DNA of 64,000 nt. Source: Halichondria panicea. Taxonomy: Eukaryota > Porifera > Demospongiae > Suberitida > Halichondriidae. Below are positions 21,450 through 55,015 of this stretch, piece by piece (within the stretch, counting starts at the first letter, position 1; each line of letters begins with the position of its first letter). The notes beneath the pieces were generated by a model. That model saw only the letters and a list, made by a program, of their open reading frames with translations, made no database searches and was not told the DNA's origin. The position numbers and the translations under genes are program-made. The DNA lies in contig NC_087381.1 in NCBI RefSeq assembly GCF_963675165.1, positions 3,348,001 to 3,412,000 of the forward strand, read 5' to 3'.

Positions 21450-22784
21450 TCCTGAATAGTTAACCTAACATATGCATGATTTCGTATAAGTACATATTTC
21501 CCACTTACTACACTTTTGCCATGTAGTCTAGTGGGATTTAAACGAGCATGCTGACTATAAAAAGGCGCGCCGTGGGCAGCTCCGACCGGTAGCAACCAAA
21601 AAATGACAAAATGGCAACAAAGTTGTTCTTGAGTCTTACAAAAAGACGCCCTTGACAGTTATAATACACATTCTTTACATTTTTACATTCTTCTTTTGAT
21701 ACGCCTTCTTTCGCTCTCTCACGAGATAGTAGACACAAACTAAAAACTAAAAATGGCTGTCAAAAGTTTATTTCAACAAGTCTGTTCTCAACCTCAAAAG
21801 AAGCCTACTGGGGGTGGAGCTAAAGTTCGAGACTGAAGATACCAAGCAAGTCTTTGTAGGTATAATTGACAGTGCATGCATGGTCTTGCTGCCAGAGATT
21901 CATTGGCCTAACATGAGGATCTGACAAACTGGTGCTGTTGTTGAAGATGTGGACATAAATAACTCAAGTAAGTAGTCCAAAGGTCTATAGTAAAGTTAGT
22001 ATAAAGCAATGTGACTTCATCAACCTGCGAACGCTTTTTCGCTTTTTAACATTAATTTGCATTTCATTTTACATGGATAAAGTAACGAAGAGGAGAGTTG
22101 AAAGTCTGTAGGGAAGGACCTTTGTATAATATCTATTTGCAGTTTGTTCGTTCATATAATTATACAGTCATTATGCCTCAGTTGGGCATGCGCAAGGTAT
22201 ACGGTAGTGTGTCTGTGTGTGTGTAGATCGACTGACTGTTACAGCTGCTCGATGATAAATGAAGAGTTTCTGTATAATTATTGTAGGCTGCTAATCATAA
22301 TTATTTCTTGAATTGCAATTAATTGAGTTTGCAAAATAATGCTTATGATTATGTTTGCTTACTTTGAAAGCTAGTACAACTTGTGTGTAGCAAAATAGGG
22401 GAATAACGAGAGAATAAAGTAAAATAAGCATTATCCGCCAGGGCCGATGAATCCATCTAAAATGTGAATTATATGTACAGTGCTCATTAATAATGGTACT
22501 GCATGTAGCTTCATTGCCTACACCGAGGCATCATCACCCTTTCAGTAACATTCATTTTTTTTCTCAGGTCGCGTTGAAGGACGCTTTGAAGGACTGCGAC
22601 TGCCTTTGCTTATTGACAGTCTCCATGGGTACACCATCTGTCAACTCAGCTTGAATCATCAATCGTGATCTTATCCTGGATTGCTAGATCCACCACTGCA
22701 CATGGTTTATTACGACCCTTCACATTGTGGTAAATTTCTTCGCTGGTGTGATTTCAATCTATTAAATTTTAAATTTTGAATAGC
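21450..22784. other. No supportable gene
   Basis: Open frames here (for example 21738-21538 minus) show no domain I can name. A 5' exon for the Ig-Roc gene could lie here but cannot be fixed. Confidence 0.35.
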
Positions 22785-22854
22785 TACTCAGTAGAGGGCT
22801 CAGGGGAGGCCGGGAGATTGTCACATGACACGTATATCATGTACATGTACTTAC

Positions 22855-24259
22855 GTGGGGTCAATTGCTGACAGATTTGATGAGCTGTGTCTCCTTTCTC
22901 CAATCCCAGTACGATATCCAGTAGAGCTCTGTAAGTTGCTCGTGAAGAATTATGTTGTTTCCAGACTTTCAAATACTTCATCATGGCTGTTTGAGTTCCT
23001 TCTCTGTGGTACAACATATTCACATCTGCTTGTTCTGCAGGAGGTAGTCTCATGGAACTCGAATAAAGTTCCACATCATCGAAACATAAGGCCAGTTTGG
23101 GAGTATCAGAGTTCTCTATTTTACTATTGAGTTGCTCGTCAGTCAGACTGTATCGTTTTATTAGTTCTTGGAGCGTGACTCGATTAGTGGGTGGTCCTAT
23201 GGAGAAAGCAAACATTGATAATTAGTGATATGCATGCATGAAGATGTAGCCACATAGTTTTAAGATCTGCATTTGTCAATGTATATAGGGGAGTAGCATG
23301 ATTAGGCCATTATTAAGATTAGGGATGAAGTCAATAATTGCTCATGGTCAATGAGAGTCTTTAGAACCTGGAAACGTAGTGTGAAGATTAACTATTGACA
23401 GTCATTATTAAAGTAGCTGAAGTCATACCTGAGGTAGAGGTAGAAGGTATCTGGTGCTCTTCTCTCAATGTATCATGATCCTGTGAAGAATAGTACATGC
23501 AGTAATTATATGCAGTAATTATTATGCTCACTTTTTGTGAATCTTGCATGCATGTACATGTACTGAATATTATATATATACGAAACGTATGTACACTATG
23601 TATGTCTAGCTTGCATGCATGTTAAAATTCCTTTTCTTTCACTCAAAACAGTCAACACTTCACACTATATAACTGCTCTATGGAAGTTTTTAGAGCCTAT
23701 ATAAAGAGACAGCTTAAGTAATTTTTTACCTTTTAGATTTTGTAACATACAACTATGATTACCAGGTAGAAATATCAAGTAGCAATTTTCCAGTCAACTC
23801 AAGTCGGTGGATGCAGTTTTCAAAATCATCAAAGTGTGTAGATATGAGGGCAGTGTCTTTGTCATTGATTTCTCTATCTAACTGCTCGTCAGTGACTCCA
23901 TGCTTGACCATCAACTCATGGAGGCTGATAGTCCCTGAATCCTATACACATGACATTTTAACAAAGTATACTAGCCAAACAACCAATGGTCTGCTCTATA
24001 CAATTGTACTTAGAATACATTAAGCTAATCTAAAGCACTCATTAAAGGTGGGGCCAAAGGGGACAATGTACCATTTGCTCATCTCCACTGCTACTAAACA
24101 CAGAGGGATCAATATCATCATGAGCCACACCAGCTAGGTCCTGTATGAGGGGAAAAGGAGTATAGTATACACAGAAGCAAAATCAGTTACTTTGTTAGGG
24201 AAGATTAACCCCACTCACCAGAGGGTTTCTCCCAGTGAAGACGCTGTACTTGTTGAGAG
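22855..24259 (-). pseudogene. Scrambled paralogue of the COR/death-domain gene
   Basis: Minus-strand segments match pieces of the gene at 2-5483. They are the COR end NKYSVFTGRNPL (24259-24219), the exon DLAGVAHDDIDPSVF (24140-24072), a partial death-domain exon HELMVKHGVTDEQLDREI (23941 to about 23785), the exon with HQIPSTSTS (23480-23429), and a full death-domain exon RYSLTDEQLNSKIENSD (23196-22855). The intron piece at 23600-23770 is the complement of the first intron of the plus-strand gene (1590-1760). The partial death domain sits between an exon and that intron, where the intact gene has none. The COR exon stops abruptly at 24259 against transposase-like sequence. This argues for a rearranged copy, though the last death-domain exon itself looks intact. 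Confidence 0.7.
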
Positions 24260-26901: not shown

Positions 26902-27696
26902 TCAGCTGTGATATATAGCTTCCATTATGGGCACATTGGTACACTGCACATTAACGAATCCAGCCTTGCTGAGTGCGTTTAAAAGCATGTCATACGTCAC
27001 TGCGTAGTAGTAGAACCTCTCTCTCCCAATTGCATAGCTAATCGATTGTGCTTTTTTTGCCAATTTCGAAAACATTATGATGGCACCATTTGGTTTTACC
27101 ATCTTTGATAGTTTTTCTATAAACTCAATGTATTCAGCTTCACTCACGCAAGCACACTCAATTGCAAGGAACGTAATTACGACATCAAATGGGCCTTCAG
27201 ATCCTTTTTCAATTGGTTGCTCAGCTTTTATGTCACACGACACCACTTTCATAAGATCGCGTAATCTTTGCTCACGTATACGAACCTCACTTTCCGGCTT
27301 TTTTTCGATGTCTTGAACAACATTCTTAATGTAGGGCAGCCAATTGAATGATGATGAATCGTTTGCTTGCCACTTGTTTAAAGCGTCTCGATTCTTTTCA
27401 GTGTACTCTGCAAGCACAATCTCAGACACTTTTCTTTTACCAGCGGCACTGATCACGTACGCAATCACTGGTCCAGAACCATAATCAAGCACCCTAAAAT
27501 CATCTTTTCCTTCAACTTCCTCATCCGGTAAAAGTTTCTTGAACATATCGTGTACAAGTTTCAATCGAACATCACGATAATAGTTCTGCGGAGTTCCCGG
27601 TATGTTGTAGTACTGTGATAGATACTGATTACCTTCGAATTTATCTTTATAGTGTAGATCTATGTCATCATTTTGGCTGTCCTTGACTTGAGCCAT
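26902..27696 (-). CDS. NNMT/PNMT/TEMT-type SAM methyltransferase, C-terminus frameshifted
   Basis: The protein starts at MAQVKDS (27696), just after a splice acceptor TTTTCTAG, so a 5' exon probably exists. The opening YKDKFEGNQYLSQYY is the family signature, and VLDYGSGPV (SAM-binding motif I), LAEYTEKNRDAL, FDVVITFLAIE and FVNVQCTNVPI follow in order. The family transfers a methyl group from SAM to small amines in the cytosol. Compared with its paralogue at 41979-42827 the frame stops early: after the stop at 26902 another frame continues LTPSEIAQLEANP to a stop at about 26817, which matches the paralogue's C-terminus. One base lost or gained near 26920 explains this. It is either a truncated gene or an assembly error. 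Substrate cannot be told. Confidence 0.85.
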   Translation of the reverse strand: MAQVKDSQNDDIDLHYKDKFEGNQYLSQYYNIPGTPQNYYRDVRLKLVHDMFKKLLPDEEVEGKDDFRVLDYGSGPVIAYVISAAGKRKVSEIVLAEYTEKNRDALNKWQANDSSSFNWLPYIKNVVQDIEKKPESEVRIREQRLRDLMKVVSCDIKAEQPIEKGSEGPFDVVITFLAIECACVSEAEYIEFIEKLSKMVKPNGAIIMFSKLAKKAQSISYAIGRERFYYYAVTYDMLLNALSKAGFVNVQCTNVPIMEAIYHS

Positions 27697-28465
27697 TGAT
27701 GAGATAGCTAGAAAATAAAGGACATCAATAAACAAAATTATCTATAACGTTTGATGGGAAATTTAGAGGCGGATATACAGAACTCAAGAGTGTGTGTGCT
27801 CTTGAGAACTGTATAGAATTGGGAACATGCCAAAAATTGTGCCTCTGGCGGGGGGGGGCTTCCCATCCTGAACTCCAGGCTGCTAAGCATAATTATCAAG
27901 TCAAAGATTGTCTCTGGGTGTTTATTAATATGGATCTAGCTACATGTAGATTACAATATGAATTAGTCATACCTTTTACCAGTTTTTCTGCTGTGACTTT
28001 CACTGAAATTTAGTTAGACAACTTTTATAACTAGAGCACTAAAGTGCAAACCCTCGGCTGGTGACATGATTATAAAGAAACCAGAAGACTGATATAATGC
28101 AGTGCATATAGTGATGTTGTTATCATCATCATGCATGACTTGCACAGCAACTCAGGAGCAATAAAACTAAACCAGACTGGAGGCATGCTGAAACATTTGA
28201 GAACAGGTAGTAGTACTATAAATATATGCACTGTGGATTAGGATCACAGCAAAGAAGCATGGAGTCTCAGAGAAGTATGGCTCCAGGTCCTGCATGGATC
28301 CCAGTCAGCTAAAGCAAGCTTTCTGGTTTAGTGACCCTGTTCCAATATTGTTCCTGGTATATACAGCTTTCTACTTTAGTGACCCTGTTCCATTGTTTCT
28401 GGACCTGGTACAGGATCACTTCAGTTATAAGTAACGCATGTGCAAGTTCTGTTCAAGCTACATTT

Positions 28466-31545: not shown

Positions 31546-34500
31546 ATGAATTGGGTTCTTAGACTTAGTTGGTCTACTCTACTTCTGGTGGTTTTCCCTA
31601 CATTTTCATGCGGACAAGGTAGGTGATATGACTGATGATTAAATGTTGAAACTGAGCTAGGACTATTGACTCTGAACAACTATATAATACACTTGCATCC
31701 AGACAATCTACGGAAATGGTATTATAATCTATACATGTATAGCATGCATGTATATAGGCCATAAATTATTTTGTGGAGATTCTGCATCCAAACAATTTCA
31801 ACTCTGGCTATCTAGGTCAAAAAAACTTTGCAGAATAACTACGCACAATACTTAATCATTGCGTCTCTCGAGCTGAAAAATTGGCTTTGTTATCTAGCAG
31901 CTATGAAAAAGCTTAAATTAAGTGCATTAAATTAAGTCCACACGAAACTAAATTTATCTATAGGGTACGTATAATAGTCCTGTAATTAAACAAACGTTGC
32001 TATACTTATAACTCTTGACCTATAATTATGTATAAATGCCTTTTCAGAAAATGTATAGCTTGCTTTTTAAAGCATGAACCTCTGCATAGTTGATCTGACT
32101 ATAATTATAAAGCGTATTATGAATACAATTATTATACAAGCATATTTGTTTATAGTATTTATACATGTTGCAATAATCATAGCAACATTCAGCATGTGGG
32201 AAGGTATGTTCATGAATGTGCTTCAAACATTAGTGAGGATAAACAAACCGACATAGCATGCTTGTGACAACAATCAACATGTTTTGTGTTCAACAGATGA
32301 CACAGTAAAAACAATACTTTATATGCGCATGCAGGCATAAAAAAGTGTCATATAATCTCTAACTGCATGGCTTTGCATGGTTCTTCAAATTTTACGTATG
32401 CAAATTGTTCTCTTCACATGCAGAGTCTAACATTCTGCCATTCTTTTCCTTGTCTACTACTGGAGTGAGAGTAGAACAAGTTGGTCATTTCGATGATGGT
32501 GTATCACAAGCAATTCACATTACTGAAGGGTTCCCTTTTGGAAACATAAATCACAATATTCTTTATGTAAGTGATTCAGTAAACCGATATAGTAATAGTG
32601 TATGGTACCGATATAGAAATTTCGTATAGCGCGACATTTTCGAGGGCTTAATTTTCGCTGATTTTTTGGGTTAGCAATCCTACACGAAACTTAGTCCACA
32701 AAAATTGTAGAATTATCTGCCATAACGTGCAAAGATTAAAGGTGTGGCTTCCAGTTAGCAGTCATTCCACGAACATTGTGCAACGAAATGCTTTATAAAA
32801 GTGCCTTGAAAATTTCGCGCTATACATGCAGTACATAGTAACAGCTCTATTTTAAGCTAACATGTTATTATGCATGCTGGTTTGGACTGTAATGAATCTC
32901 GTTGCCTTTTTGACCTCTAAAATCAAAGGAAATACAGAACCGTAAAATAGATTCGAGGTATATTTATAAGGTCTTTTTTAGTCGCGGCTATTTTCTGAAA
33001 TGCGGCCACCTCGCTATTCCGGCCACTGCACTGCATGTCCCAGAGGTGCATGGCTGTACTTCTTAATCTGGGTATCCATCCCTTGCATTATACAGATTGG
33101 CACCAATGGATATTTTGCTTTCAGTGAGCCATTCTATGGGAACACGCCAGAAACTTTCCCTGGTGTTACAACTGATGTTGCATCCGCATATCTGGTTGCT
33201 CCATTCTGGGATGATGTTGATATTCGCCGTAGAGGAAACATTTTATACGAGGTCCATTCATTGACAAGTACTAATGGCCCCAGTCTGCTTTTTGAAGTCA
33301 ACAGATTCATTTCACCCGATGGCTCATTTTTTGGGACTTGGATGGTGGTAGTTCAATGGAATATGGTTCACTCATGGCCTGATGGAGAGAGTGATGCCTT
33401 TCGTCAATTTGCCCTTGATTTTTATGGAATTGACACCTCCTTGGTAAGATGGTTGGTATTATAATAATTATTGCTAACCCCCATTCTATCAACTCTATAC
33501 TGTGTGCATGCTTGCATTCAGATCGCCAACTTTATATATGTTCACAGGCTAACACATTTCAAGGGATCCTCATCACAAATGGGACTGCATCATACACGGT
33601 GTTCACCTACAGATGTGATAGTATGCAATGGTCTCTGAATGGTGCTACTATCGGCTACAATGCAGCTGGTGACTATTTTGAAAACCATCCCAACACTGGA
33701 AGCTTTGTCTCTCATGAAATTGCTTGCCTCAACAGTCCCGGCTCAGAGTGGTTTAATGTGGTCTACAACATCAGCGTGGACACACCTGGAACACTAGCCC
33801 CTCCCCCTACTGTCGAACCAGGTACCGGATGGCAACGTATCTATATATTACATTTCATGCATATACAGCTTGAAATAATTGACATTCAATTACAGTCTAG
33901 AAACATGAATGCAATGTCGCTACAATCCTATACAGCACAACTCAACTACTTGGAATATTTGGACTTTGGTTCTAATTACCTTGAGAGATGTAGGAATTGC
34001 AGCTCTCCACCTATACCACTAGGTGTCCCTGGACTACCATTTGGAAGCTACTATCATGAGACTCTCTATGTACGTTAACAAGTTGTTTACAATCCATGCA
34101 CTTGCAGTAGAGACACTCTATACAAGTCATGGTATTATGTATATGGTTGAACTTGTCATCAAATTCATTTAGAGCCATGTGCATTATAGTTCTTGAGTGG
34201 GGCTAATAAGTGCATATAGTGGATAAAGAGGTAATTATGACTCAATATAACGGTTCAAATTTTTCAATTTCGTAAGTGTTAGAGCAGTAAGGTATCGTCA
34301 AATAACCTCTAAGTCACTTAGTGCCATCATAGATAGAGTAGAAGAGGGATTGGAAACGGAAGTACCCTCGAAGTACCATCCGTGTATCTCCGCGGTTTTA
34401 ATCGAGGCTTACTTTTTAACACGAGGGCTAAACATGAATAATTCATGAGAATTGTTTTGCTCTCTGTAAAGAAGTCCACAAGCAGTTCTGCTGCTAAACA

Positions 34501-37500
34501 TCAACTTTCTCTAATACTTGAGGCCATTTGGGACACAGGACACTATTTAGTTACAAAGCCTTAGCTATATCAAAGGTACTATAGGAACACAAGCATGAAA
34601 AAGCGCTCGATCTGTGTACCTCTAGCTACTTCACGACAATCGAGATTATATTTTCTTTGTTTCCAATTGATACCTACTATCAGGGGGCATGTGATTCAGT
34701 AATGGGGGTAGCTCTGAGATGTATGCTTTGGACACAATAAGTTTCCCGGGCTTTTGCGGGAGTTATGAGGAGATAAACGGATGGTCCCAGAGCCACTACG
34801 TAGACTTCATTGTAAAACATCACGTGAATCACTTCCGTTTCCAATCCCTCTTCTACTCTATCTATGGTGCCATGCAAAATACAATCATTATGCCTCGAGG
34901 CGTAGCCGCACGAGAAATATATACGGTAAAGCTGACTGTGTGCGTGTACTATTCCAGCTATACAACTGCTCAACGGTTGCAATGCGACGAATACTAATAG
35001 CTTAATTCTAGAGGTTTCTATAGCCACTTTCTTTTGTATTTTGACTCGTGGATGCAAAATTGTCTACTTTTAATTGTTGCAGTCTCTTCAGAATCTTTCA
35101 TAGCATTATCTGGCACGAACTTCTATACAACCAGGAGCAGATGAGAGGATTGTCTTATGCATAGTATATTCACTATCGGCTTCCTTGTTTGTAATGTGCT
35201 AAGTTTCTGTACATGTGTGGCTGATAACGCGTTTGGTCTGAATATCATTAAGTACAATGAATAATGTTAGCAGGTTTGACATTATAATTATGGCATAGCT
35301 AGACGATACAGAATCCGCGTAGTAAGCTAGACGCTCTGCTCCATCCCCTCATCTTAGCCTTACACTAAAGTGCTAGCTGTTTGTTAGCTATACAAGAGTC
35401 AGAAAAGAGCTGTAAAGCAAGATCTACATGCTTCTATCCTTGAAGATCATTCTATTAAGCTCGTCTTCCTTTTGATTAGGAATTAAATTTGTTCATTGTC
35501 AACAATTGCAAATGCAAGCATTAAGTTTTACCTCTTCTAATACTTTTTGAGCAAAAAAAGAGGCATTAGCCTTGATTTCAGGCCGCCCTCGAAACTCGGA
35601 ACTGTGGCCTGGTATACATTGTATGCATGTGCATACATTACCACAAAAAGGTGGTAATCCGCATATTTGTGGATACTAGCTGTCTGTAAAATATACACGT
35701 ATACTATTTTGTATTCTGAAGTTGTAGTCCGTGTTACATCATTACATATAATGTGCAAAATCAAGATAACTGAGTCCTGCTTTGGCTTGCGCCCTTAATT
35801 TATTGTGTCATGCAGGCCAAGCCATTAGAGAGATAAGCTACTTAATTGACGACACCCTATACACTGTAGGCTACAGATGTTATGAGGCGTGGTGTGTTCC
35901 TGTGCGTCCCCTAGGCAAGTCATCTGCTACTAATAATTTATGTTCGACAAGAAGTCATTGTTGAAGATAAAGCCGGAAGCTAATGATCAAGCTTAGACTC
36001 GACACTCAGGAAGTCATTAATTCAAGTTCTAATATGGGCTTGGCAAGTCATCTGCCACCAAACCTTGCCTTCTATTTTCGTCATTGCTGAAGATAATTAT
36101 TGAAGAAGCTATAATGATCACTCCTTTAAGCTTTTAATAAGCTTATAGACTCGACACTCACGAAGTTATTCACTAAAGTTCTACTAGAACCTATAAGAAA
36201 AGTTCACCACTCTTCCTGTCTGGAAGGCCTCGATCCTTGAACTGCCTCTTTGCTAAACAGAGCTTGTAGAATGATCACTGCTGCAGACAATTATTGTAGG
36301 CTCCCATATTGTGGTCATTTTACCACTACTAACCACGTGCATGGTCTTGCGTATTCTTTCTCGTGTACTTTGTCTGTTTATACAATTTGTATGATGAAAT
36401 TTACAGTGTGTATAATATACGAATTATTTCGCGCATGCATGCGCATGCAGTATACCAGGCAGTCTTTCTTCTTTCAAACGGCTTGAAATTGAAACTATAG
36501 AGAGGCACTAGCTGCAACATTCATTTATTCACAGCATTATCTCTCTTTACAGGTGGGGAACAATGGGCTTTTTTCCTTTGGAAAGCCTCTCCTCGAGAAC
36601 AGTCCAGCAGAATTCCCAACACAGCAAGCCTCGACATACTACGCTTACATTGTTGCACCTTTCTGGTCTGACATCGACACAAGACTCAATGGAAGTGTTC
36701 GTTGGCAAGTTTATTCTCCAGACGTAGATGGCGAAGATGTACTGATCAGCAGAGTTGAAGAGTTCATAAACATTGAGCTTGGCCAGGACTCTATCACCAA
36801 TGCCAACTGGATGCTGGTAGCCACTTGGGTGGGTGTTCATCCTTTCCCTCACAGCAATTCTGTTGAGGAAGATCGATTGGACCCTTATCTGCAAAGGGTA
36901 AACAATAGTGGGAAGTTTGGTATATCGCACAACAGTCAGAGTGACTATATAAGTGAGCATGCAAGGGGTAGGGCAGGGATATATCTGTATTAATTGACTA
37001 TGACTGGGTGATGATCCAATTAAATTTCTTCAGCCATTATAAATGTTCATAATTATTATCAGGAAAACACTTTTCAAGGCATTATCATCTCTAATGGCAC
37101 CAAAGTGTATGCAGTATTCACGTATGTCTGTGAAGACATGGAATGGTCTGATGCTGCTGTGATTGGATACAACGCTGGGGGTGAACCCTATCAAAATCAT
37201 CCACTGAGTAGTGGACCAGAGTCTAGAGTCATCGGTTGTGTGCATAGACCTAGTTCTGATGTGAATAATGTTGTGATGGATTTAGCACCAGGGGTTGCTT
37301 CTGGGACTACTCCGGAGCCTTTCAGTACTGTTGGTGAGTGGCTGGAAGTTTGCATCAACGTACAGTTGTAATTGCCGTGATTGATCGTAGACCTCTATAT
37401 ATAATACAGCTGCATTATTTTAGTGATTTGTACACACAGGCACATGTGCTGCTGCCGGATACACGGAGTGCTGTGACTTCAATGTGGATAGCTGTGTTGG

Positions 37501-40500
37501 ATCTGTACCAGCCGACTGCTTTTGTGACGCTCTCTGCGTGAACTTTGGGGACTGCTGTCGTGACCAGCCAGACATCTGTCAAACTGACATAATCTCTGCA
37601 GGTAACTTAAAAGATACAGTTTACAAGATCTTTTTCAATCACTCGGAATACATGCAGCTTCAACAATACGTCAGTGTGCATACATGTATTATGTCATTGT
37701 ACTATGTGACTGCTTACAATTAATTAATTGGTGCAGGAAATAGCAGCTACTTACTGTACTCGGATCATTTTTATATTGGTCGGCTAAGTCTTGATGGACA
37801 GTTATTTGAAACACTACCTCTAATTCTCCTTCGAGGGGCTTCTGTTTTGGACTTTGACTATATGTAAGTCCTTTAAGTAGTATATACAGCACATGTCAAG
37901 TCTTGAAAAATTCAGGAGAGGCTTCCTGTACTGGTACGACTACATTGAAAGCGGCATATTCAGATCATCACTGAATGGGTCCAATCCGGTTCAGTTGGTC
38001 AACACATCAGCTTTTGGTACAGTAGGTGAGTCGATTTTTCCCATTGAGCAGATAAGTTCATGAATGCTTTGTATTGACAGAGGACATAGCTGTTGATTGG
38101 GTGAGCAACAAACTCTACTGGACTGAGACTCTATACAGAAGAATAGAAGTGCTGGACCTGGAGACTTTGGTAGTTGCACCAGTCTTGGATGCTGATCCTC
38201 ACTCTGGAATAAGAGGCATTGCTGTGGACCCAACCACAAGGTAAGTCATGCTTACTTGTTTGTATCTTGTTATACAATTCTCGAAAGATAACCCAACCAG
38301 GCTCGGTTTTAGATGGAACAAGTATTACACTACTTGCTTTCTGCCTTTAGGTACATGTACTGGACTGACTGGGGTGAGCCTGCTAAGATAGAGAGGTCCT
38401 CCATGGACGGTGCTGACAGGACAACTCTTCACAGCACGGGACTGGGTGAACCCAATGGGATAACCATCGACTATCAGACTCAGACCATCTACTGGACAGA
38501 CTCTGTCCTGGGAGTGATTGACTACTCTAACACTGATGGGACCAACAGACGTCGATTGCAATCAAACTTACCTTATCCCTACGCCATCACAATAGAGGGG
38601 AGTCTGGTGTTCTTCACCGACTGGATTGATGTGGGCGTACATGCTACACACAAACTGGACGGTGACAATGTGACAAAATTTGTAAATGCTTTCACAATAA
38701 GACCAGCTGGGATTGAGGTTATTGCGTCTAATCGGCAAGCTGAAGGTGAACGTTTCATTATTAATTATAATAATTATGCTGCTCATTAGCCATGGTTTTT
38801 CACTTAATTATCTAGCCACCAATTTTTGTTTGAGCTCCACTTGCGATCACCTGTGTACATTGAGCAGCACTGATTCAAGAGGGTTCTCTTGTGCTTGTAT
38901 GATTGGTTACTCGTTGGACAGCAATGGAATCAGTTGTACATGTGAGTTAAGTTTTGAATTACATGCCTCACAAAACCCACTCATGACTGTAGACAATGTT
39001 TTAAAAGAGGGCTATTATTGATTTTTACTATCTTCTTAGATACTGGGACTGAAGCACCTCCTACGCAAGGTATGCATGTAAACAATTTAGTCATTGCGTT
39101 TTTGTGGCGCTGTAATGATATTGAGCAGTCATTATGTAGCAAACAGTCTGTTTTGTGTCACACGCATCAAACACACATTCTTATCCCATAGGAACTTGTA
39201 ATGGATCTGGTTACACAGAGTGCTGTTCCGGTGGTTTCTGTGCTGGAAGTCCCACAACTTGTTTCTGTGATGCAGCCTGCCGCTCTCGTGATGACTGCTG
39301 TGGTGATATTGATACCACATGTCCTGCCAGGCCCACTTCCTGCAGTGCTGCAGGACACGATATTTGCTGTACTGGTCTTCAGTGTGCTGGTGTCTCGGAT
39401 GGAGCATCTTGCTACTGTGATGAAGGATGTAGAATGTTTGGAGACTGTTGTGATGACATTGACACAACTTGTCCATGTACGTTTGGATATTGCATATTTC
39501 TAGTTTGTCATAATAATAATATTTGATTAATCTACACAGTAAAAACAGATTCGTTATAATAACATAAAACATCTCAAATAAAATGCATCATTTGAAATTT
39601 AATGTAGAAATGACAGAAATTTATGTCATTTCTACATTAAATTTCAAATGATGCATTTTATTCGAGATGTTTTATGTTATTATAACGAATCTGTTTTTAC
39701 TGTGTATCATACTGATATACCGGTAGTACCAACAATGGCTACAACTACGGAAGGTCCAACTTTGGCAACTACTATGGCAATGGTAGAAACAACCATGCAT
39801 ACTACTTCAATGCCCCTGGCAGAAACAACTATGGATACTGCTTCAACGCCCCCGACAGAAACAACGGTAGATATTACTTCAACGCCCCCGACAGAAACAA
39901 TGGTGGATACTACTTCAACGCCCCCAACGGAACTTTGCAATTCCGGTATACATTAGCATTATCGTGCACGCGTGCAGCCACACATAATATTTGCACATGC
40001 ATATCACCAGATAGGTAACACTTAGGTTAATCTCATGCTATATAATACCATAATTTCAATTTAGACACGTCTATTTTAATTCCGTTATCATAATTATAAG
40101 TATAGCACATTTAGAATCCAGAAAGACCCAGTGCATCAATAATAATAATAATTATACAGAACTTCCCGAGCCAGTGAGGAGTATTAACCTAACCCCGATT
40201 GATGCAAGCAGTCTCCGTGTCTCTTGGATGCGCTCCCTCACCGATGTACCCACCTGTGATGATGATGCGTTTATTGTGACTATCACTGGGTACTCTGGTG
40301 GCTTTGAGCTAGTGAGAGTGTCAGAAGAGGCATCTCTATCAATCACCAGTCAATTTCTTGGTATGAGCAAATAGTATGGAATAAATTTTGTTATAAAATT
40401 ACTGCATTTAGTTAATGTGTAGATGTAACTAAGTGAATTGCCTTTTTCAGAGAAATGGATTGCGTACAATGTTTCTGTGACTGCTCGCAATGCTTTGGGA

Positions 40501-41706
40501 ATAAGTAAACCACTGATGGATACAGTATTTACTGAAGAAGGAGGTACTGAAGTTTAGGAATCTCTTTATTACCTTATACCCTAAATCCACAGTTCCACCA
40601 ATACCTCCCTTTCACTTTGATGTGAAGAGGACATCCCCCTCTGAGATGACTGTTAGCTGGGACCCACTAACTATTGTAGAGGCCAGAGGATTTATAACGT
40701 CATACACAGTGTCCTATGGTCCAGTGAGTATCTTAACTATATTATGAGTAGCTAACAGTCAATAATTATAGATACAGTCACTCCATGTAGGTTTGCATTA
40801 TGTACAGTAACTGCATGTGTTTCATACTTTTTTTATAAAATCTATGTGTGCATGCAATGTATAGATTCCCTCCACTGAGAATGCAACAATACGTCAGACA
40901 GACAGTAGAAATTTGGAAGTGCCCGAGGACATGAGCAGTGTTTCCATTGGCAACCTCAAGGCGGCTACAGCATACTCAGTGAGTGTGAGAGGCAATACCA
41001 GAGCTGGTGCTGGAGTGTCCAGTGATGTTTTCATCTTAGGTGAGCACATGCTGCGTCCTTTTTACTAAGTTATCCCTGACCCCAGAAATGTATAGTTATA
41101 CGCTGACACATTGTATGCCTATAAGGTTTTTCTAGAATTATAATGCCGTTAAACTGCTTTATCTGTATATATAGGTACTAGCACTGGCACTGGCACTGGA
41201 ACCAGCGTAGGTGCTATTGCTGGTGGAGTTGTCACAACAGTGCTAATAATAGTTCTCCTCTCTGTGTTTTTTATCGGAGTCTTGATTACCGTGTCAAGAA
41301 AAAGAATTAAAAATAGTGTTAGGGAGTACGTTCAATTTTCGTGAGTTCAAATAAAAGTGTAGGATATTACCCTACAAGAGTTGTTGTTTTTTATTATGGT
41401 AACCATTATTACAGAGGAGATACAGATGATGTCAGCATAAACAGCAACACCACTGCCAGTGTATCTCTGTTCGTAAGCAACTCCACCAGAAACACTGAAC
41501 CAGAAGAACCTGTACAGACAATGAGCTACAAGCAACTCAACGATGAACAAAATGATTCTCTCGCCGAGCCTCCCCGTTACCATGACATCATTGAGAGTGC
41601 TCCTAAATTTGAAACAGTACCTATGACACTTGAGACTGTTCCTATGCCTAACTCTGATAAACTTTCAAAGTCGAACGAGCTTGAGAAAGTAGATCTCGGA
41701 TCATAA
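31546..41706 (+). CDS. Mosaic single-pass membrane protein: NIDO-NIDO-SMB-YWTD-EGF-SMB-SMB-mucin-FN3-FN3-TM-PPxY
   Basis: Twenty-two exons join in frame to 1,419 codons plus stop: 31546-31618, 32424-32566, 33096-33443, 33548-33821, 33936-34069, 36553-36897, 37063-37333, 37440-37601, 37737-37863, 37916-38025, 38081-38240, 38351-38745, 38816-38941, 39040-39069, 39192-39476, 39727-39945, 40160-40360, 40451-40543, 40593-40723, 40865-41039, 41175-41340, 41415-41706. The N-terminus MNWVLRLSWSTLLLVVF is a signal peptide. Two NIDO domains (VAPFWDDVDIR, VAPFWSDIDTR) use matching exon sets. A somatomedin-B domain (CCRDQPDIC), YWTD-type LDLR-B repeats (MYWTDWGEP, IYWTDS), an EGF-like domain, two more somatomedin-B domains, a Thr/Ser/Pro stalk and two FN3 domains follow. 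GAIAGGVVTTVLIIVLLSVF begins the membrane helix. The cytosolic tail contains PPRY, a possible WW-domain ligand. Role inferred: cell-surface adhesion or matrix receptor. Confidence 0.85.
32608..32835. repeat. Inverted-repeat element in intron 2 of the NIDO receptor gene
   Basis: CGTATAGCGCGACATTTTCG at the left pairs with GAAAATTTCGCGCTATACATG at the right. The ends resemble the GCGGGTAATTTTCG family but with GCGCGA in place of GCGGGT. Confidence 0.55.
34325..34872. repeat. Intronic element with about 40-bp terminal inverted repeats
   Basis: ATAGATAGAGTAGAAGAGGG plus ATTGGAAACGGAAG at the left is the complement of CTTCCGTTTCCAAT plus CCCTCTTCTACTCTATCTAT at the right. An inverted partial copy, including GAGAGCAAAACAATTCTC, lies at 59165-59335. 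It sits in the 2.5-kb intron between exons 5 and 6 of the NIDO receptor. Confidence 0.65.
34888..35415 (+). repeat. Second copy of the TATGCCTCGAGGCGTAGCCG repeat
   Basis: It shares TATGCCTCGAGGCGTAGCCG, CTCAACGGTTGCAATGC and ACTAAAGTGCTAGCTGTTTG with the copy at 29009-29345. It is intronic in the NIDO receptor gene. Confidence 0.55.
39535..39704. repeat. Near-perfect 170-bp palindrome with CACAGTAAAAACAG ends and TA duplication
   Basis: The two arms, each about 80 bases (for example CAGATTCGTTATAATAACAT and ATGTTATTATAACGAATCTG), are almost exact complements. TA flanks both ends. It lies in the intron before the mucin exon of the NIDO receptor and ends only 22 bases before that exon's acceptor. 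The near-perfect pairing suggests recent insertion. Confidence 0.85.
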
Positions 41707-41978: not shown

Positions 41979-42827
41979 TTATGTTTTAACTGCTACAACC
42001 GATACATAACAAAACTCTTCTGAAGAAGTATGTATTTCTAGCTGAGCAGCTTCAGATTGTGACAGACCAGAGATAGTGTCAGCGATGGGAATTCGAACAC
42101 ACTGAACATTTTCAAACCCCATTTCTTCCAAACTTCTAATAAGAATATCAGTAGAAATTGCATAGTAGTAGAATTTCTCTCCACCTAGCTCGTAGTGCAT
42201 TGGTTGCGGTTTCTGTGCCACTTTCGAGAACATGTACAAGACCCCTCCAGTCTTAACCAATGTTGATAGTTTCTGTATCGAGGTGGTGTAATCAATTTCA
42301 CTGTGACAGGCACTCCCAATAGCTAGTGAAGTCATGACAACATCATATGGGCCTTCAAATCCTTTTTCGATAGGTTGCTCAGCTTTTACGTCGCATGATG
42401 CAACTTTCACGAGATTGCGCAACCTTTCCTCTCGCACAAGCACTTCACTTTCTGGTTTATTTTCAAGGTGTTGAACAACGTACTTGATATATGGCAGCCA
42501 ATTGAAAGCCGATGAATCTTTGTATAGCCATTGGTGCAACGCTTCTCGGTTTGTGGTTGTGTACTCGGCTAAAACTATTTCAGAAACATTTTCTTTGCTT
42601 GCTGCACTAATAATGAATGCCAAAACAGGCCCAGACCCATAGTCAAGCACCTTTAAGTCCTTGGCATTAGAATGCATTGTTTTACTTCTGAAGAGCTCAT
42701 GGATCATCTTTAACCGCATATCTCGGAACTGATTCAATGGAGTTCCTGGTTTTTTAAACCGTTGATTCAAAAAAACCTGAGCCTTGAATTTATCTTTGTA
42801 CTGATTTTCTTCTTGCCTTGCGTCCAT
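41979..42827 (-). CDS. NNMT/PNMT/TEMT-type SAM methyltransferase, intact
   Basis: An uninterrupted 282-residue frame starts at MDARQEENQYKDKF. It shows the family opening, VLDYGSGPV (motif I), LAEYTTTNREAL, YDVVMTSLAIGSAC and FENVQCVRIPIA, and ends SSEEFCYVSVVAVKT. Length agrees with the family, which is usually about 260-290 residues. It is clearly a paralogue of the gene at 26902-27696 and shares the CDVKAEQPIEKG segment. It is convergent with the NIDO receptor gene, whose stop lies about 270 bases away. The enzyme should act in the cytosol on a small amine; the substrate is unknown. A non-coding or short first exon may precede it. Confidence 0.9.
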   Translation of the reverse strand: MDARQEENQYKDKFKAQVFLNQRFKKPGTPLNQFRDMRLKMIHELFRSKTMHSNAKDLKVLDYGSGPVLAFIISAASKENVSEIVLAEYTTTNREALHQWLYKDSSAFNWLPYIKYVVQHLENKPESEVLVREERLRNLVKVASCDVKAEQPIEKGFEGPYDVVMTSLAIGSACHSEIDYTTSIQKLSTLVKTGGVLYMFSKVAQKPQPMHYELGGEKFYYYAISTDILIRSLEEMGFENVQCVRIPIADTISGLSQSEAAQLEIHTSSEEFCYVSVVAVKT

Positions 42828-43013
42828 CAGAATTCTGGCCTTTGTTACAGCTAAGGAACAGTATGAATAATTATGCTGTTACTTCATAACAATGGCTGCA
42901 TGTGCGCATAGGTACCAGGCAGCAACATAAAAAATAGGTAGTTACAGTGTTACACAACAACAAAACATGCCTAGAGTCAGGTAGTTAGTGATGCATATAA
43001 ACGGGCCTAATCC

Positions 43014-46809: not shown

Positions 46810-48087
46810 TTAAATGTTAGTGTACCCACCATATCGATCAGGCCTGTTGCGATTTCTTTGCGGATATTGTCGAGCTGTTAATGCACCAGTCGAGGGTGAC
46901 TCATCAGGTGGGGTCGGAGACGGATCAGTTGACTGATCAGGGGAAACTTCAAAATCTTGCAAATCCTTGTGAGCTGCCGTATCGTCGAAATCGTTTGGAT
47001 TTGTTATATCGTCTTGTGACGACTCGGTGGTGGAAAGAGAATGAGTTCTATCACGTATGTGGTCGATATGTCGACGTAGTATCCTGCCATCACCAATTTC
47101 CACTTTGTAAGATACTGGTCCTGTCTGTTGTACAATGCTTCCTGGAAGCCATGTACCGTTTGTTCGGAAAAGTTTGAGCATTACTTGTTGACCAACAGAG
47201 AACGTCCTTGGTTTAGCATGTTTGTCATGTTGCTGTTTCTGTTTCATCTGCTTGTCAGATACGTTTCCCTCTGTGTTTGGTTTGAGGAGATCGAATCGTG
47301 TACGTACTTTTCTTTGAAGGAACAGTTCACTCGGTGAGACGTTAGTGGTAGCATGTGGAGTTGAGCGGTATGACAGTAAAAACTGAGCCAATCTTGTTTT
47401 CAAACTCAGTCCTTCTCTCTCTCCAGCTTTCATGGCTCTTTTGAACGTTTGTACAAATCGTTCAGCTTGGCCGTTCGTGGAGGGATGGTATGGAGCACTT
47501 CGTATGTGTCTTATGCCATTGGCTTGAACAAAATCGCTAAATTCTTGGGATGTGAATTGTGCACCATTGTCGGAAACAATCTGTTCTGGTAGTCCATACC
47601 GAGCAAATAGTGCTTGCAGTGCCTCGATCGTGTTTTGAGACGTAGTGGAAGACATCTGAATCACTTCTGGCCACTTGGAATGAGCGTCTACAACCACTAG
47701 AAACATTTTGTTCAAGAATGGACCAGCGTAGTCAATATGGATCCTTTTCCATGGGCTGTTTGGCCAAACCCAAGGATGGAGTGGTGCTACTGCAGGTTTA
47801 GAGGCTTGTTCCTGGCACGATAGGCACGCTTTTGCTTGGTTTTCGATGTCTTTATCGAGTCCACTCCACCACACGTAACTGCGGGCAATAGCCTTCATTC
47901 GGGACATTCCAGGGTGGTTCTCATGGAGAGCACGAAGGGTCTTTGCATGCAGGTTCTGTGGAATGATTGTGCGAATTCCCCACATCAAGCAACCACTTTC
48001 GATGCCAATTTCAAGACGGCGGTTGAAATATGGTTGTAGATCCGGTGTCACTTTCTGTGGCCATCCTGATTTGACATACTTTAACAC
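46810..48087 (-). CDS. Integrase region of Ty3-type pol
   Basis: The frame carries an HHCC zinc-binding segment (HENHPGMSRMKAI ... CLSCQ), then the catalytic core with IDYAG, SDNGAQF and NGQAERF supplying the D, D and E residues, and a C-terminal tail ending with Pro/Ser/Asp-rich sequence and RQYPQRNRNRPDRYGG. It inserts element DNA into the host genome. It is separated from the RNase H frame by a small frame change near 48090, and its first methionine is not a true start. Confidence 0.9.
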   Translation of the reverse strand: MLKYVKSGWPQKVTPDLQPYFNRRLEIGIESGCLMWGIRTIIPQNLHAKTLRALHENHPGMSRMKAIARSYVWWSGLDKDIENQAKACLSCQEQASKPAVAPLHPWVWPNSPWKRIHIDYAGPFLNKMFLVVVDAHSKWPEVIQMSSTTSQNTIEALQALFARYGLPEQIVSDNGAQFTSQEFSDFVQANGIRHIRSAPYHPSTNGQAERFVQTFKRAMKAGEREGLSLKTRLAQFLLSYRSTPHATTNVSPSELFLQRKVRTRFDLLKPNTEGNVSDKQMKQKQQHDKHAKPRTFSVGQQVMLKLFRTNGTWLPGSIVQQTGPVSYKVEIGDGRILRRHIDHIRDRTHSLSTTESSQDDITNPNDFDDTAAHKDLQDFEVSPDQSTDPSPTPPDESPSTGALTARQYPQRNRNRPDRYGGYTNI

Positions 48088-48695
48088 CTTGCGGTTGGGT
48101 CACGTCGGGTAGCCGTCTGCACCTGCTGAGATGTTACAGGAAGAGCTTCGATTTGAGCCACATTGAAAGTGTGAATAGCATTAATGTCAGCCGTTTCGTA
48201 CGAATCTTGTACTGGCAAGGGGAGACGTGATAATGCATCAGCATTGCTGTGTGCTTGAGTGGGCTTGAATTGGATATTGTAATCATAACCTGAGAGAAAA
48301 ATTGCCCAACGTTGGAGACGAGCAGCTGCTAGGGACGGTATTCCTTTCTTTGGGCCAAATATAGCTGTCAGAGGTTTGTGATCAGTGATTAACGTGAATT
48401 TCCTGCCATACAAATACTGGTGAAACTTCTTGGTACCAAATACCAATGCCAGTGCTTCTTTCTCGAGTTGAGCATAGTTTTGTTCGCTTGTCGTTAGCGT
48501 GCGTGAAGCAAAACAGATTGGTCTCTCAGCCCCGTCTGGTAGTACATGAGAAATAACGGCTCCAATGCCGTAGGCTGACGCGTCCGCAGCCATGTTGATT
48601 GGTAGGTCCGGGTCATAGTGGGTGAGCACATCAGATGATGTAAGTTGTTTCTTTGCTTCTGTAAAAGCTTCCTGACATTCCTGTGTCCATCCCAC
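48081..48695 (-). CDS. RNase H region of Ty3-type pol
   Basis: NMAADASAYGIGAVISH, LEKEALALVFGTKKFHQYLY and TDHKPLTAIFG give the acidic RNase H active-site motifs, followed by ARLQRWAIFLSGYDY and SNADALSRLP. The frame overlaps the upstream gag-RT frame and is offset by one base, at a short run of C (plus strand) near 48690. Confidence 0.9.
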   Translation of the reverse strand: MGWTQECQEAFTEAKKQLTSSDVLTHYDPDLPINMAADASAYGIGAVISHVLPDGAERPICFASRTLTTSEQNYAQLEKEALALVFGTKKFHQYLYGRKFTLITDHKPLTAIFGPKKGIPSLAAARLQRWAIFLSGYDYNIQFKPTQAHSNADALSRLPLPVQDSYETADINAIHTFNVAQIEALPVTSQQVQTATRRDPTARC

Positions 48696-50749
48696 TTATG
48701 ACTCGCTTGCAGAAGTTGGTTGATTGGGTAAAGGATGCTAGAGAGATTCTTGATGAACTTTCCGTAGTAGTTCAGCAACCCGAGGAAGGAGCGAAGTTCT
48801 TGAACATTCTTTGGTTCTGGAGCCTGTGCAATAGCATCTACTTTACTTGGAAGAGCTTGGATTCCCTCTTTGCTGATCTGATGACCAAGATATTCTACCG
48901 ACTTGGCCAAAAAGATACATTTTTCCTTCTTCAATCGCAACCCGTGTTCCGTAAAAAGTTTGAGGACTTGCTCCAGATTGTGTAGGTGGTCTTCTTCATC
49001 CACTCCTGTTATCAACAGATCGTCTAAGTAGCAGATAACGTGAGGCACTCCACGTAGGATGGTGTCCATCAGTCTTTGGAATATTGCTGGGGCTGACGCC
49101 ACGCCAAAAGGAAGTCGGCTGAACTGGTATAACCCTTGATGGGTGTTGATAGTCACGTATTTGGTAGAGTCCTTATCGAGTTCGACCTGTAGATACGCTT
49201 GTGACAAATCAAGCTTAGTGAAAAGGGAGCCATTTGCTAGTGTTGCGAATAGGTCTTCGGGTTTAGGCAAGGGGTACTGATCAACTTCAAGGTCTTGGTT
49301 GATAGTCACTTTATAGTCGCCGCAGAGTCGAAAACGTCCGTCTTTCTTGGGAACTGCGACCAACGGTGCTGCCCAGTCACTGCTAGGTATTTTCTGGATG
49401 ATACCTTGTTGCTCCATGCGGTCCAATTCTTCTCCAATAGCCTCTTTGGTTGCATAAGGAACAGGACGTGGTTTGAAAAACCGAGGAGTAGCATCTGGCC
49501 GTACTCTGAGAGTGGCTTTGTGTGAGGTCACAGTACCTAACTCGTCCTTGAACAATGAATCGTATTCGTGTAACAAATTCTTTAGTGTACCTGCAGGGGG
49601 AGATTTGACAGTTGCAATACATTTCCAGTCCAACTGGAGGTACTTCAGCCAATTGCGTCCAAAAAGACTTGGTCCACTTCCAGCAACCACCACCAGCACC
49701 AGCCGAGCCACCTGTTCTCCATAATTAACACACACATTAATCTGACCCGTTACCATCATAGCCTCATCTGTATATGTCTTTAGCAAAATATTTGACTTAC
49801 GCAGCTTGAATTTAGAGAACTTGGCCTTTCTGGTGGCCTCAGAGATAATAGATATTGCAGCTCCGGTATCGATTTCCATCTTGAGTGGAGTATCCTCGAT
49901 CTTGACTGTAACTGTGATCGGCTGTGTAGAAGGCTCGGTCAATCGGTATAGGTGGTAAGTGTCAGCTTCTGAGTTGGTCGAGCTGTTCCCATCTGGTTCC
50001 ACTAGGTGAGTTTTGAATCGTCTCTTCTCTGTCTTCTTGAACTGAGAGGGTGGGTTGGAGCGGCAGGCTGGTGCTATGTGTCCCTGCTTTCCACATGAGT
50101 GACACTCTGCATCCTTGAAACGGCAATCAGCTGCAGAGTGATTCGACTTTCCACAGCGGTAACAAGGTTGGTTTGGCTGCGGTCTCCTTTTGCTTTGTAT
50201 GCTCTTGATGGAGGGGTTGCTGGCCTTGAGTGCTCTGGTGTTGCTTTCTGCTGCTTCCATTCCCTGTGCGATTTCCATTGCTCTCTTCAAAGTAAGTTCT
50301 GTTTCGGCTAATAGTCTTCTTTGCATTGCTTCGCTTCGGAGTCCTGCAACGAAACGGTCACGTAGGGCTTCAGTGAGATACGCCCCAAAATTGCAGTGTG
50401 TTGCCAGCTTGCGTAGAGCTGCATCGTATTCTGCTAAAGATTTGTCAGGGACTTGATCCCTTTTTTGAAAATGAAAACGTTCTGCGATCACCGCTCGTGT
50501 CGGTTCGTAGTGCTTCCGTAGTGCAGCAAATATTTCTCCCTTTGTCTTCGATTTGGGAGCCTCAGGTGCAAGCAAGTCACATAGAAGACTGTAGGTCGTT
50601 GCACCAATGGAGCTGAGGAGAATAGGTACTTGCTTATCATCAGGGACTGTATTCGCCGTGAAGTAGAGGTCTACCTGATCCAGGTAGGTCTTGATAGACT
50701 CTTGGTCTGGTCTGTAATTGTTGAGAGTTCCATAGTGTGTGGCTGCCAT
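48494..50749 (-). CDS. Gag-protease-RT polyprotein of Ty3-type element
   Basis: The frame starts MAATHYGTLNNYRPD close to the 5' LTR. The capsid-like part runs to about residue 190. Two CCHC knuckles follow (CYRCGKSNHSAADC and CHSCGKQGHIAPAC). The protease has IDTGAAISII, and the RT has FTKLDLSQAYLQV and YLDDLLITG with the catalytic aspartates. Gag and pol are in one frame. The end of the frame after INQLLQ is out of phase with RNase H, so this copy probably cannot make a full Pol. Confidence 0.93.
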   Translation of the reverse strand: MAATHYGTLNNYRPDQESIKTYLDQVDLYFTANTVPDDKQVPILLSSIGATTYSLLCDLLAPEAPKSKTKGEIFAALRKHYEPTRAVIAERFHFQKRDQVPDKSLAEYDAALRKLATHCNFGAYLTEALRDRFVAGLRSEAMQRRLLAETELTLKRAMEIAQGMEAAESNTRALKASNPSIKSIQSKRRPQPNQPCYRCGKSNHSAADCRFKDAECHSCGKQGHIAPACRSNPPSQFKKTEKRRFKTHLVEPDGNSSTNSEADTYHLYRLTEPSTQPITVTVKIEDTPLKMEIDTGAAISIISEATRKAKFSKFKLRKSNILLKTYTDEAMMVTGQINVCVNYGEQVARLVLVVVAGSGPSLFGRNWLKYLQLDWKCIATVKSPPAGTLKNLLHEYDSLFKDELGTVTSHKATLRVRPDATPRFFKPRPVPYATKEAIGEELDRMEQQGIIQKIPSSDWAAPLVAVPKKDGRFRLCGDYKVTINQDLEVDQYPLPKPEDLFATLANGSLFTKLDLSQAYLQVELDKDSTKYVTINTHQGLYQFSRLPFGVASAPAIFQRLMDTILRGVPHVICYLDDLLITGVDEEDHLHNLEQVLKLFTEHGLRLKKEKCIFLAKSVEYLGHQISKEGIQALPSKVDAIAQAPEPKNVQELRSFLGLLNYYGKFIKNLSSILYPINQLLQASHKWDGHRNVRKLLQKQRNNLHHLMCSPTMTRTYQSTWLRTRQPTALEPLFLMYYQTGLRDQSVLLHAR

Positions 50750-50786
50750 TGCTGTAGGCTACTTGATCCACAATCCTTGTCGCCAG

Positions 50787-51929: not shown

Positions 51930-52550
51930 GCTCCGGAGGATCCTGTCTGGGATCCTCCTGTGTATGTGCATGTATATATATATACACCTGTGTCCGGAGG
52001 ATCCTGCCTGGGATCCTCCTGTGTGTCCGAAGGATCCTGCATAGCTATACATACACCTACACCTGTGTCCGGAGGATCCTGCCTGGGATCCTCCTGTGTG
52101 TCCGGAGGATCCTGCATAGCTATACATACACCTACACCTGTGTCCGGAGGATCCTGCCTGGGATCCTCCTGTGTGTCCGGAGGATCCTGCATAGCTATAC
52201 ATACACCTACACCTGTGTCCGGAGGATCCTGCCTGGGATCCTCCTGTGTGTCCTGAAGATCCTGCATAGCTATACATACACCTACACCTGTGTCCGGAGG
52301 ATCCTGCCTGGGATCCTCCTGTGTGTCCGGAGGGTCCTGCATAGCTATACATACACCTGTGTCCAGAGGATCCTGCATAGCTATACATACACCTGTGTCC
52401 GGAGGATCCTGCCTGGGATCCTCCAGTGTCTGGAGGATCCTGCTTGGGATCCTCATGTGTTTGTATGTATATAATTATATGCACCTGTGTCCGGAGGATC
52501 CTGCTTGGGATCCTCCTGTGTGTCCGGAGGATCCTGCATGGGAAGGACAT
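51930..52550 (+). repeat. Minisatellite with 75-bp unit, upstream of the DUF3987-type gene
   Basis: Units starting ACCTGTGTCCGGAGGATCCT lie at 52061, 52136, 52211 and 52286, with shorter units on either side. Each unit contains paired words such as GGAGGATCC and GGATCCTCC and can form hairpins. Because 75 is a multiple of three, frames stay open on both strands, which produces long but repetitive open frames (for example 52456-51761 minus); these are not evidence of coding. The array runs straight into the broken DUF3987-type coding sequence. Confidence 0.9.
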
Positions 52551-54061: not shown

Positions 54062-54324
54062 GATAACTATTGTATATAACACTGTAGTTAATTTAACTAA
54101 ATCCACAGTTGCGTGTGCAAATTCAGTTACGTGCACTTTTCTTACTATACATACATAAAATTATAACAGGCAAGTAAACATCAGGACATCCCCGAGGAAA
54201 ACTCAATAGAACAGTCAAACTACGTATCTGTATTTCAATCATGTACATATATACCAATGCTGCAGCATGTCCTGATAAAAAATCATTACTCAGTATATAA
54301 TCATTATGCAGCATGTTGGGGTCC

Positions 54325-55015
54325 TGGGACAGTCCCAGGACTCCCACTCGGGATCCTCCGGACACAGTGTACATGCATGCGTGTGGGAGTCCTGGGAATG
54401 TCTCGGGACTCCCACACGGGGATCCTCCGGACGCAGTGTGCATGCGTGCTTGCGGGAGTCCCGGGACTGTCCCGGGACTCCCACACGGGGATCCTCCGGA
54501 CGCAGTGTACGTGTGTGCGTGCGGGAGTCCTGGGACTGTCCCGGGACTCCCACATGGGGATCCTCCGGACGCAGTGTACGTGTGTGCGTGCGTCCCGGGA
54601 CTCCCACACGGGGATCCTCCGGACGCAGTGTACGTGCGTGCGTGCGGGAGTCCTGGTACTGTCCCGGGACTCCCACACGGGGATCCTCCGGACGCAGTGT
54701 ACGTGCGTGCGTGCGGGAGTCCTGGGACTGTCTCGGGACTCCCACACGGGGATCCTCCGGACGCAGTGTACATGCATGCGTGTGGGAGTCCTGAGAATGT
54801 CTCGGGACTCCCACACGGGGATCCTCCGGACGCAGTGTGCATGCGTGCTTGCGGGAGTCCTGGGACTGTCTCGGGACTCCCACACGGGGATCCTCCGGAC
54901 GCAGTGTACGTGTGTGCGGGAGTCCTGGGACTGTCCCGGGACTCCCACACGGGGATCCTCCGGACGCAGTGTATGTGCGTGCGTGCGTGCGGGAGTCCTG
55001 GGACTGTTTGGGGTG
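54325..55015 (+). repeat. GC-rich minisatellite with 69-bp unit
   Basis: About ten units of the form CCACACGGGGATCCTCCGGA, CGCAGTGTACGTGCGTGCGT, GCGGGAGTCCTGGGACTGTC, CCGGGACT repeat head to tail. Starts at 54481 and 54550, and at 54604 and 54673, give the period; the unit between 54550 and 54604 is shortened to 54 bp. GGGAGTCC..GGACTCCC forms a palindrome in each unit. The core GGATCCTCCGGACRCAG is shared, in opposite orientation, with the 75-bp array at 51930-52550. Long open frames on five frames are a by-product of the period being a multiple of three. Confidence 0.9.

Follow-up and report, generated by a model that had tools for sequence, protein, structure and literature searches.

One gene for a large chimeric receptor with NIDO domains and an LRP-type propeller

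Introduction

What kind of protein is encoded on the forward strand between positions 31546 and 41706 of the stretch of DNA analysed here (64,000 nucleotides (nt), hereafter the window), and is it the product of a single gene? A first-pass annotation had read this locus as a receptor with the order NIDO-NIDO-SMB-YWTD-EGF-SMB-SMB-mucin-FN3-FN3-TM (SMB, somatomedin-B; TM, transmembrane segment) and had suggested a "membrane-tethered nidogen-like adhesion receptor". Our analysis shows a single, intact animal gene whose product is a large receptor of the cell surface, made of shuffled, familiar modules; gene content and introns point to the animal origin. It is best labelled an LRP-propeller/NIDO chimeric receptor rather than a nidogen, and NIDO and an LRP-type propeller are modules that are also paired in nidogen. 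Each module is familiar but their combination appears to be new, with no description of the same domain order in the open-licence literature among the matches listed.

Results

The domain order given above was borne out by Pfam profiles, cysteine patterns, relatives in the Protein Data Bank (PDB) and hydropathy (Table 1). A domain search of the 1,419-residue product, which had been proposed as a check, recovered NIDO (2.9e-46, two stretches), Ldl_recept_b (9.8e-24) and fn3 (2.9e-15, two stretches), with Somatomedin_B below its cut-off (0.0034; 18.1 against 23.1 bits). In this whole-protein Pfam scan (maximum E 10, HMMER filters discarding most matches above about 0.1), no match was listed for any EGF family, LDLa ligand-binding repeats, G2F (the nidogen beta-barrel), thyroglobulin, AMOP, VWD or sushi.

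An independently rebuilt gene model comprises 4,260 nt in 22 exons, with GT-AG borders at all 21 introns, a single terminal stop and 1,419 amino acids (aa), the same exon and codon numbers that the first-pass annotation had reported. Exon-by-exon comparison of reading frames had revealed clashes at two of the 21 junctions in the initial exon set, 4/5 and 21/22. These were removed by a canonical acceptor at 33936 (CTATACAG/CAC; exon 5 is then 33936–34069) and by a strong donor after 41340 (TTC/GTGAGT; exon 21 is then 41175–41340), respectively, and in the final model the frame is uninterrupted from the first methionine to the one terminal stop. Two alternatives around exon 4 were rejected. A retained intron 4 (1,457-aa model) keeps the frame open, but by eye the inserted residues do not resemble NIDO, and use of the 33936 acceptor also yields a phase-1 border as at the other module borders; a donor at 33811 (1,429-aa model) is a weak site (ACT/GTC). 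That the exon lengths add up to an exact multiple of three says little in favour of the model, because each of the 21 junctions has at least one in-phase GT/AG pair no more than 30 nt from the sites used. Stronger evidence comes from donor quality (13 of the 21 model donors have at least seven of nine consensus bases; of all 613 GTs in the span, model donors included, 3.75% do), from intron positions common to the NIDO domains, and from Pfam profiles that recognise domains across exon junctions. Taken on their own, the gene structure and domain order are very probably correct.

The longest intron had been suspected of hiding a gene break between 34069 and 36553. Intron 5 (34070–36552) measures 2,483 nt, against 49–805 nt for the other 20 introns, and it lies inside the second NIDO domain (NIDO2). 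Exon 5 ends in HETLY and exon 6 resumes with VGNNGLFSF, paralleling the passage from HNILY at the end of exon 2 to IGTNGYFAF in exon 3. The same layout, a phase-1 entry followed by two phase-0 introns, is common to NIDO1, NIDO2 and a further NIDO gene at 55341. A break here is excluded, since it would cut a domain that the intron splits exactly as in NIDO1 and the neighbouring gene. NIDO2 is 37% identical to NIDO1, compared with 28% for the NIDO of the neighbouring gene, and duplication of the three-exon NIDO unit within the gene would be the best explanation. Intron 5 also contains a 551-bp stretch bounded by inverted repeats (34322–34872; 42-nt arms, 95% complementary, 467 nt between them), which may account for part of its length; by eye, a similar sequence can be seen near 59,300.

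Phase 1 is found at all 11 introns at module borders as we defined them (1/2, 4/5, 7/8, 8/9, 12/13, 13/14, 14/15, 15/16, 16/17, 18/19 and 20/21) versus two of the 10 others (Fisher p = 2.2e-4). Modules of class 1-1 are a classical sign of exon shuffling, and the gene carries the signature of assembly by this route.

Ten skips of one module each were tested, and eight keep the frame open as far as the normal stop. The exceptions are exons 14 and 16: the frame is kept, but a stop codon is created where the flanking exons meet, following residue 889, beyond the EGF module, for exon 14 and residue 994, beyond SMB3, for exon 16. Both stops precede the membrane anchor. Free skipping of these two exons is thus ruled out by the stop codons; the internal stop on skipping exon 14 also appears in the model with the donor at 33811. 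Transcripts that lack either exon might be degraded or give rise to a secreted head. Intron 15 (250 nt) is largely taken up by a 200-bp near-perfect palindrome (39520–39719, arms 92% complementary, no spacer), probably a foldback element, which ends 7 nt upstream of mucin exon 16. The palindrome may influence splicing, and irregular use of exon 16 is therefore conceivable.

Against the PDB the propeller alone scored higher with an LRP6 first-propeller construct (3soq, 169.1 bits) and an LRP4 construct (3v64, 152.8 bits) than with nidogen (1npe, 127.8 bits, no single stretch above threshold alone) and LDLR (1ijq, 119.2 bits); this is a ranking of bit scores and not a tree, and multi-propeller chains such as LRP2 outrank these through summed scores. 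Propeller and EGF together align in one stretch (query 3–305) to a single LRP4 module. When the EGF was scanned alone, FXa_inhibition, cEGF and EGF all matched below their cut-offs. The YWTD propeller followed by an EGF module, the arrangement of LRP and LDL receptors, is present, and by score the pair would be of LRP type. The propeller reads PNG, as do the three LRP4 modules shown and one of the two LRP2 modules shown in full (the other reads PAG); we take this column to be LRP6 N185 and draw no conclusion from it. Passages of two sources describe the NXI pocket of LRP propellers (PMC3843708, PMC7585440), one of them with LRP6 N185 contacting the Asn of the sclerostin NXI motif (PMC7585440).

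Classical SMB domains contain eight cysteines. In all three SMB-like copies here 10 cysteines are invariant, an extra one lying well ahead of the CC pair, and the copies may represent an SMB subtype, judging from their sequences. Scanned apart, SMB2 and SMB3 lie just over the Pfam cut-off as a pair (23.3 against 23.1 bits). A profile of the three copies matches ENPP2 (best E 7.6e-4, two SMB domains summed) and, weakly, vitronectin (0.045), and aligned to ENPP2 the cysteine core of the SMB fold is present. A structure prediction for SMB3 was too poor to judge the fold (pLDDT 55.1, pTM 0.30). For the NIDO domains, searched against the PDB both as one sequence and as a four-row profile, there were no matches at E up to 1; a passage of PMC4227867 states that for NIDO no homologue was identified.

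Towards the membrane, the mucin exon contains a 36-bp (12-aa) tandem repeat (39785–39932, 4.1 copies; Tandem Repeats Finder), and the transmembrane segment at aa 1281–1307 is the sole stretch with a 19-residue mean hydropathy above 1.6. The tail carries PPRY (a PPxY motif) and YVQF, YKQL and YHDI (YxxPhi motifs). In other proteins PPxY binds WW domains and YxxPhi binds AP-2. A pattern search of the 112-aa tail found no NPxY, PPPSP or acidic dileucine.

Table 1. Features of the receptor gene, with positions in the window
Feature	Position	Strand	Layout	Evidence
Whole coding span	31546–41706	+	22 exons, 1,419 aa + stop	Assembly from open frames at canonical GT-AG sites; Pfam
Signal peptide (putative)	31546–31617	+	Exon 1, aa 1–24	N-terminal Met and hydrophobic run, read from sequence
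NIDO domain 1	32424–33821	+	Exons 2–4, internal introns phase 0, 0	Pfam NIDO 1.1e-20, 74.9 bits
NIDO domain 2	33936–37333	+	Exons 5–7, NIDO1-like intron layout	Pfam NIDO 1.4e-25, 90.8 bits
SMB-like domain 1	37440–37601	+	Exon 8, 10 cysteines	Pfam 15.3 bits (cut-off 23.1); cysteine pattern as SMB2/3
YWTD propeller	37737–38745	+	Exons 9–12, six blades by eye	Ldl_recept_b 4.1e-27, three stretches
EGF, LRP type (by score)	38816–38941	+	Exon 13, directly after propeller	FXa_inhibition 2.7e-06, 27.9 bits (cut-off 33.4)
Linker exon 14	39040–39069	+	30 nt, phase 1-1	
SMB-like domains 2 and 3	39192–39476	+	Exon 15, 10 cysteines each	Pfam 23.3 bits for pair
Thr/Ser/Pro-rich mucin-like stalk	39727–39945	+	Exon 16, phase 1-1	42% Ser+Thr over 72 residues
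FN3 domain 1	40160–40543	+	Exons 17–18	Pfam fn3 22.8 bits alone (cut-off 25)
FN3 domain 2	40593–41039	+	Exons 19–20	Pfam fn3 46.7 bits
Transmembrane helix	41213–41293	+	Exon 21, aa 1281–1307, limits by eye	Peak hydropathy 3.01
Cytoplasmic tail	41294–41703	+	112 aa	One PPxY, three YxxPhi

Elsewhere in the window, a second NIDO gene (55341–58558, +) encodes a signal peptide, a NIDO domain with the same intron phases as the focal gene, a Ser/Thr-rich stalk and a transmembrane segment. From the end of its NIDO to the end of the fifth exon there are 281 residues, with 37% Ser+Thr in the first 230; its last exon and 3' end are provisional. The start of a third NIDO gene, a close copy of the second, runs off the window (63435–64000, +). 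Together these genes show a local NIDO gene family. Open reading frames (ORFs) for NNMT/PNMT/TEMT methyltransferases flank the receptor gene on the reverse strand (26902–27741 and 41979–42878), and a long terminal repeat (LTR)-type retrotransposon (46810–50758, −) shows gag, aspartyl protease, reverse transcriptase and integrase matches in two ORFs. Strong tandem arrays were detected at 10661–11749 (172-bp unit), 14362–14799 (37), 51983–52543 (75/36) and 54321–55007 (69). Death-domain-like ORFs at 2936–3433 and 4975–5445 (+) are below the Pfam cut-off, an ORF at 22784–23221 (−) resembles them by eye with no Pfam match, and an Ig-like ORF and a weak, sub-cut-off Roc-like ORF also occur.

Rfam gave no matches in the window at the gathering threshold. 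The first 994 residues produced 14 pattern matches in prokaryote genome contigs, and the 465-residue piece from SMB1 to SMB3 two in viral contigs, none confirmed by tblastn. Missing relatives in such collections are expected for an animal gene and therefore say nothing on animals.

Discussion

The proposal of a membrane-tethered nidogen-like adhesion receptor holds in part. A single membrane-anchored gene is what we find, and "adhesion receptor" is plausible; "nidogen-like" is too strong, because no G2F or thyroglobulin match was listed and LRP6 and LRP4 give the propeller higher scores than nidogen does. Like nidogen-1 and nidogen-2, the protein combines an N-terminal NIDO (the nidogen G1 domain, here present twice by Pfam), a YWTD propeller and EGF. 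Unlike them, it has two NIDOs, SMB, a mucin-like segment and FN3, and where nidogens are secreted and have no membrane anchor, the full model has one strong transmembrane segment. NIDO by itself is not diagnostic of nidogen, as noted in a passage of PMC10280926, and nidogen-1 G3 is described in part of PMC4227867 as a laminin-binding propeller of six YWTD modules.

Other known families share parts of this architecture. LRP4, LRP5 and LRP6 (and LRP2) likewise have an LRP-type EGF immediately behind a YWTD propeller, and LRPs are type I membrane proteins, as we read the window protein to be. It differs from LRP4/LRP5/LRP6 in having one propeller–EGF module instead of several and in its added NIDO, SMB and FN3 domains, and from the LRP family in lacking an LDLa match and NPxY or PPPSP in the tail. 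Proteins of the MUC4/SUSD2 type combine NIDO or SMB with a mucin-like segment and a membrane anchor, as here; the window protein, which has no listed match to AMOP, VWD or sushi, instead has a propeller and FN3. The SMB-like copies match the cysteine core of vitronectin and ENPP2 SMB domains while carrying 10 cysteines. SNED1 joins NIDO with FN3 and EGF, as does the window protein, and to our knowledge is without YWTD or SMB. It is an extracellular-matrix protein according to PMC11828466, whereas the window protein is membrane-anchored.

Our preferred mechanism, to which we assign a probability of roughly 0.4, is a type I adhesion/endocytic receptor subject to regulated endocytosis. The NIDO pair and the LRP-type propeller would form a ligand-binding head, lifted off the membrane by the SMB-like modules, the Thr/Ser-rich segment and the two FN3 domains. 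In the tail, YxxPhi motifs may recruit AP-2-type adaptors and the PPxY motif a WW-domain protein, for example a NEDD4-class ubiquitin ligase. It would follow from such a head, stalk and tail that the receptor binds a matrix or particulate ligand and is then internalised or turned over; going by the tail motifs, endocytosis or turnover seems at least as likely as adhesion.

Several points weigh against this mechanism or the model beneath it. The model, like the proposed ligand binding and function, is read from genomic sequence. On their own, three modules (SMB1, EGF and the first FN3) do not reach their Pfam cut-offs, and the phase statistic includes a border acceptor (33936) picked to restore the frame as well as our own list of borders. 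Secreted forms through skipping of exon 14 or 16 are possible and make the mechanism slightly less probable. The classical LDLR-family signal NPxY is missing from the tail. In 20,000 shuffles of the tail, the PPxY count was reached in 272, the YxxPhi count in 207 and both in one, figures that overstate the motifs, which were picked after reading the tail and are suggestive at most.

Among the other explanations, a pure adhesion or self-recognition molecule, in which NIDO and SMB bind matrix or other cells, with a structural role for the propeller and tail motifs that serve only housekeeping turnover, seems somewhat unlikely: matrix and adhesion proteins often contain NIDO, SMB and FN3, and the neighbouring gene encodes a simpler NIDO–Ser/Thr stalk–TM protein, but the propeller keeps its LRP form and EGF, suggesting retained ligand binding, and the long tail has four trafficking-like motifs. 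It is also quite unlikely that the protein is one of the diverse mosaic receptors reported from sponges and serves immunity or the sensing of microbes. A figure legend on Halichondria panicea receptors in PMC8242945 does name somatomedin-B-like and NIDO, and the window contains the Ig-like ORF besides the weak Death-like and Roc-like ones; against this, the survey's family-defining domains (SRCR, CTLD, NACHT, TIR and GPS) are not in the Pfam list of the focal protein, and its tail is without a signalling domain.

Descent from nidogen, as a membrane-tethered ancestor-like form or a true orthologue, would account for the co-occurrence of NIDO, YWTD and EGF-like modules, with NIDO N-terminal to a propeller to which that of nidogen is detectably related. 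We nonetheless judge it highly improbable given the missing G2F and thyroglobulin matches, the higher LRP6 and LRP4 scores (though bit scores are not a tree), the membrane anchor, SMB and FN3, which are foreign to nidogen, and phase-1 borders that make independent assembly easy. That the model wrongly fuses two or more adjacent genes is barely credible: the genomic basis of the model and the conspicuous length of intron 5 speak for it, but this intron lies inside NIDO2, the inverted-repeat stretch may explain part of its length, and the frame runs open from the first methionine to a single terminal stop.

A bolder extension of the adhesion/endocytic receptor, which we consider a long shot, is that the gene represents an undescribed class in early-branching animals. 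Here NIDO and an LRP-type propeller on a membrane stalk, with a 10-cysteine SMB spacer, would link matrix directly to the cell in the absence of a basement membrane built on nidogen. Its turnover would be regulated by WW and AP-2 proteins, and loss of exon 14 or 16 might act as a splice switch to a secreted head. Module mosaics are common in early-branching animals, hence we regard the interest of the locus as moderate. In the parts of the literature concerned, glass sponges are reported with laminins but no other basement-membrane component, nidogen being thought to have come later (PMC10280926), collagen IV is not detectable in demosponges whereas Placozoa have nidogen (PMC5395295), and nidogen is listed as a part of bilaterian basement membranes (PMC8380372). 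An LRP4-like protein and a sushi-2-like mucin are named as separate proteins among red-coral skeletal proteins in a passage of PMC7853314.

At present the gene is of value mainly as a clean example of exon shuffling with phase-1 module borders, together with a 10-cysteine SMB variant. A membrane protein that unites NIDO with an LRP-type propeller would reveal how the two came together outside nidogen and, if the host is a sponge, would provide a candidate, open to testing, for the way in which such cells hold on to matrix.

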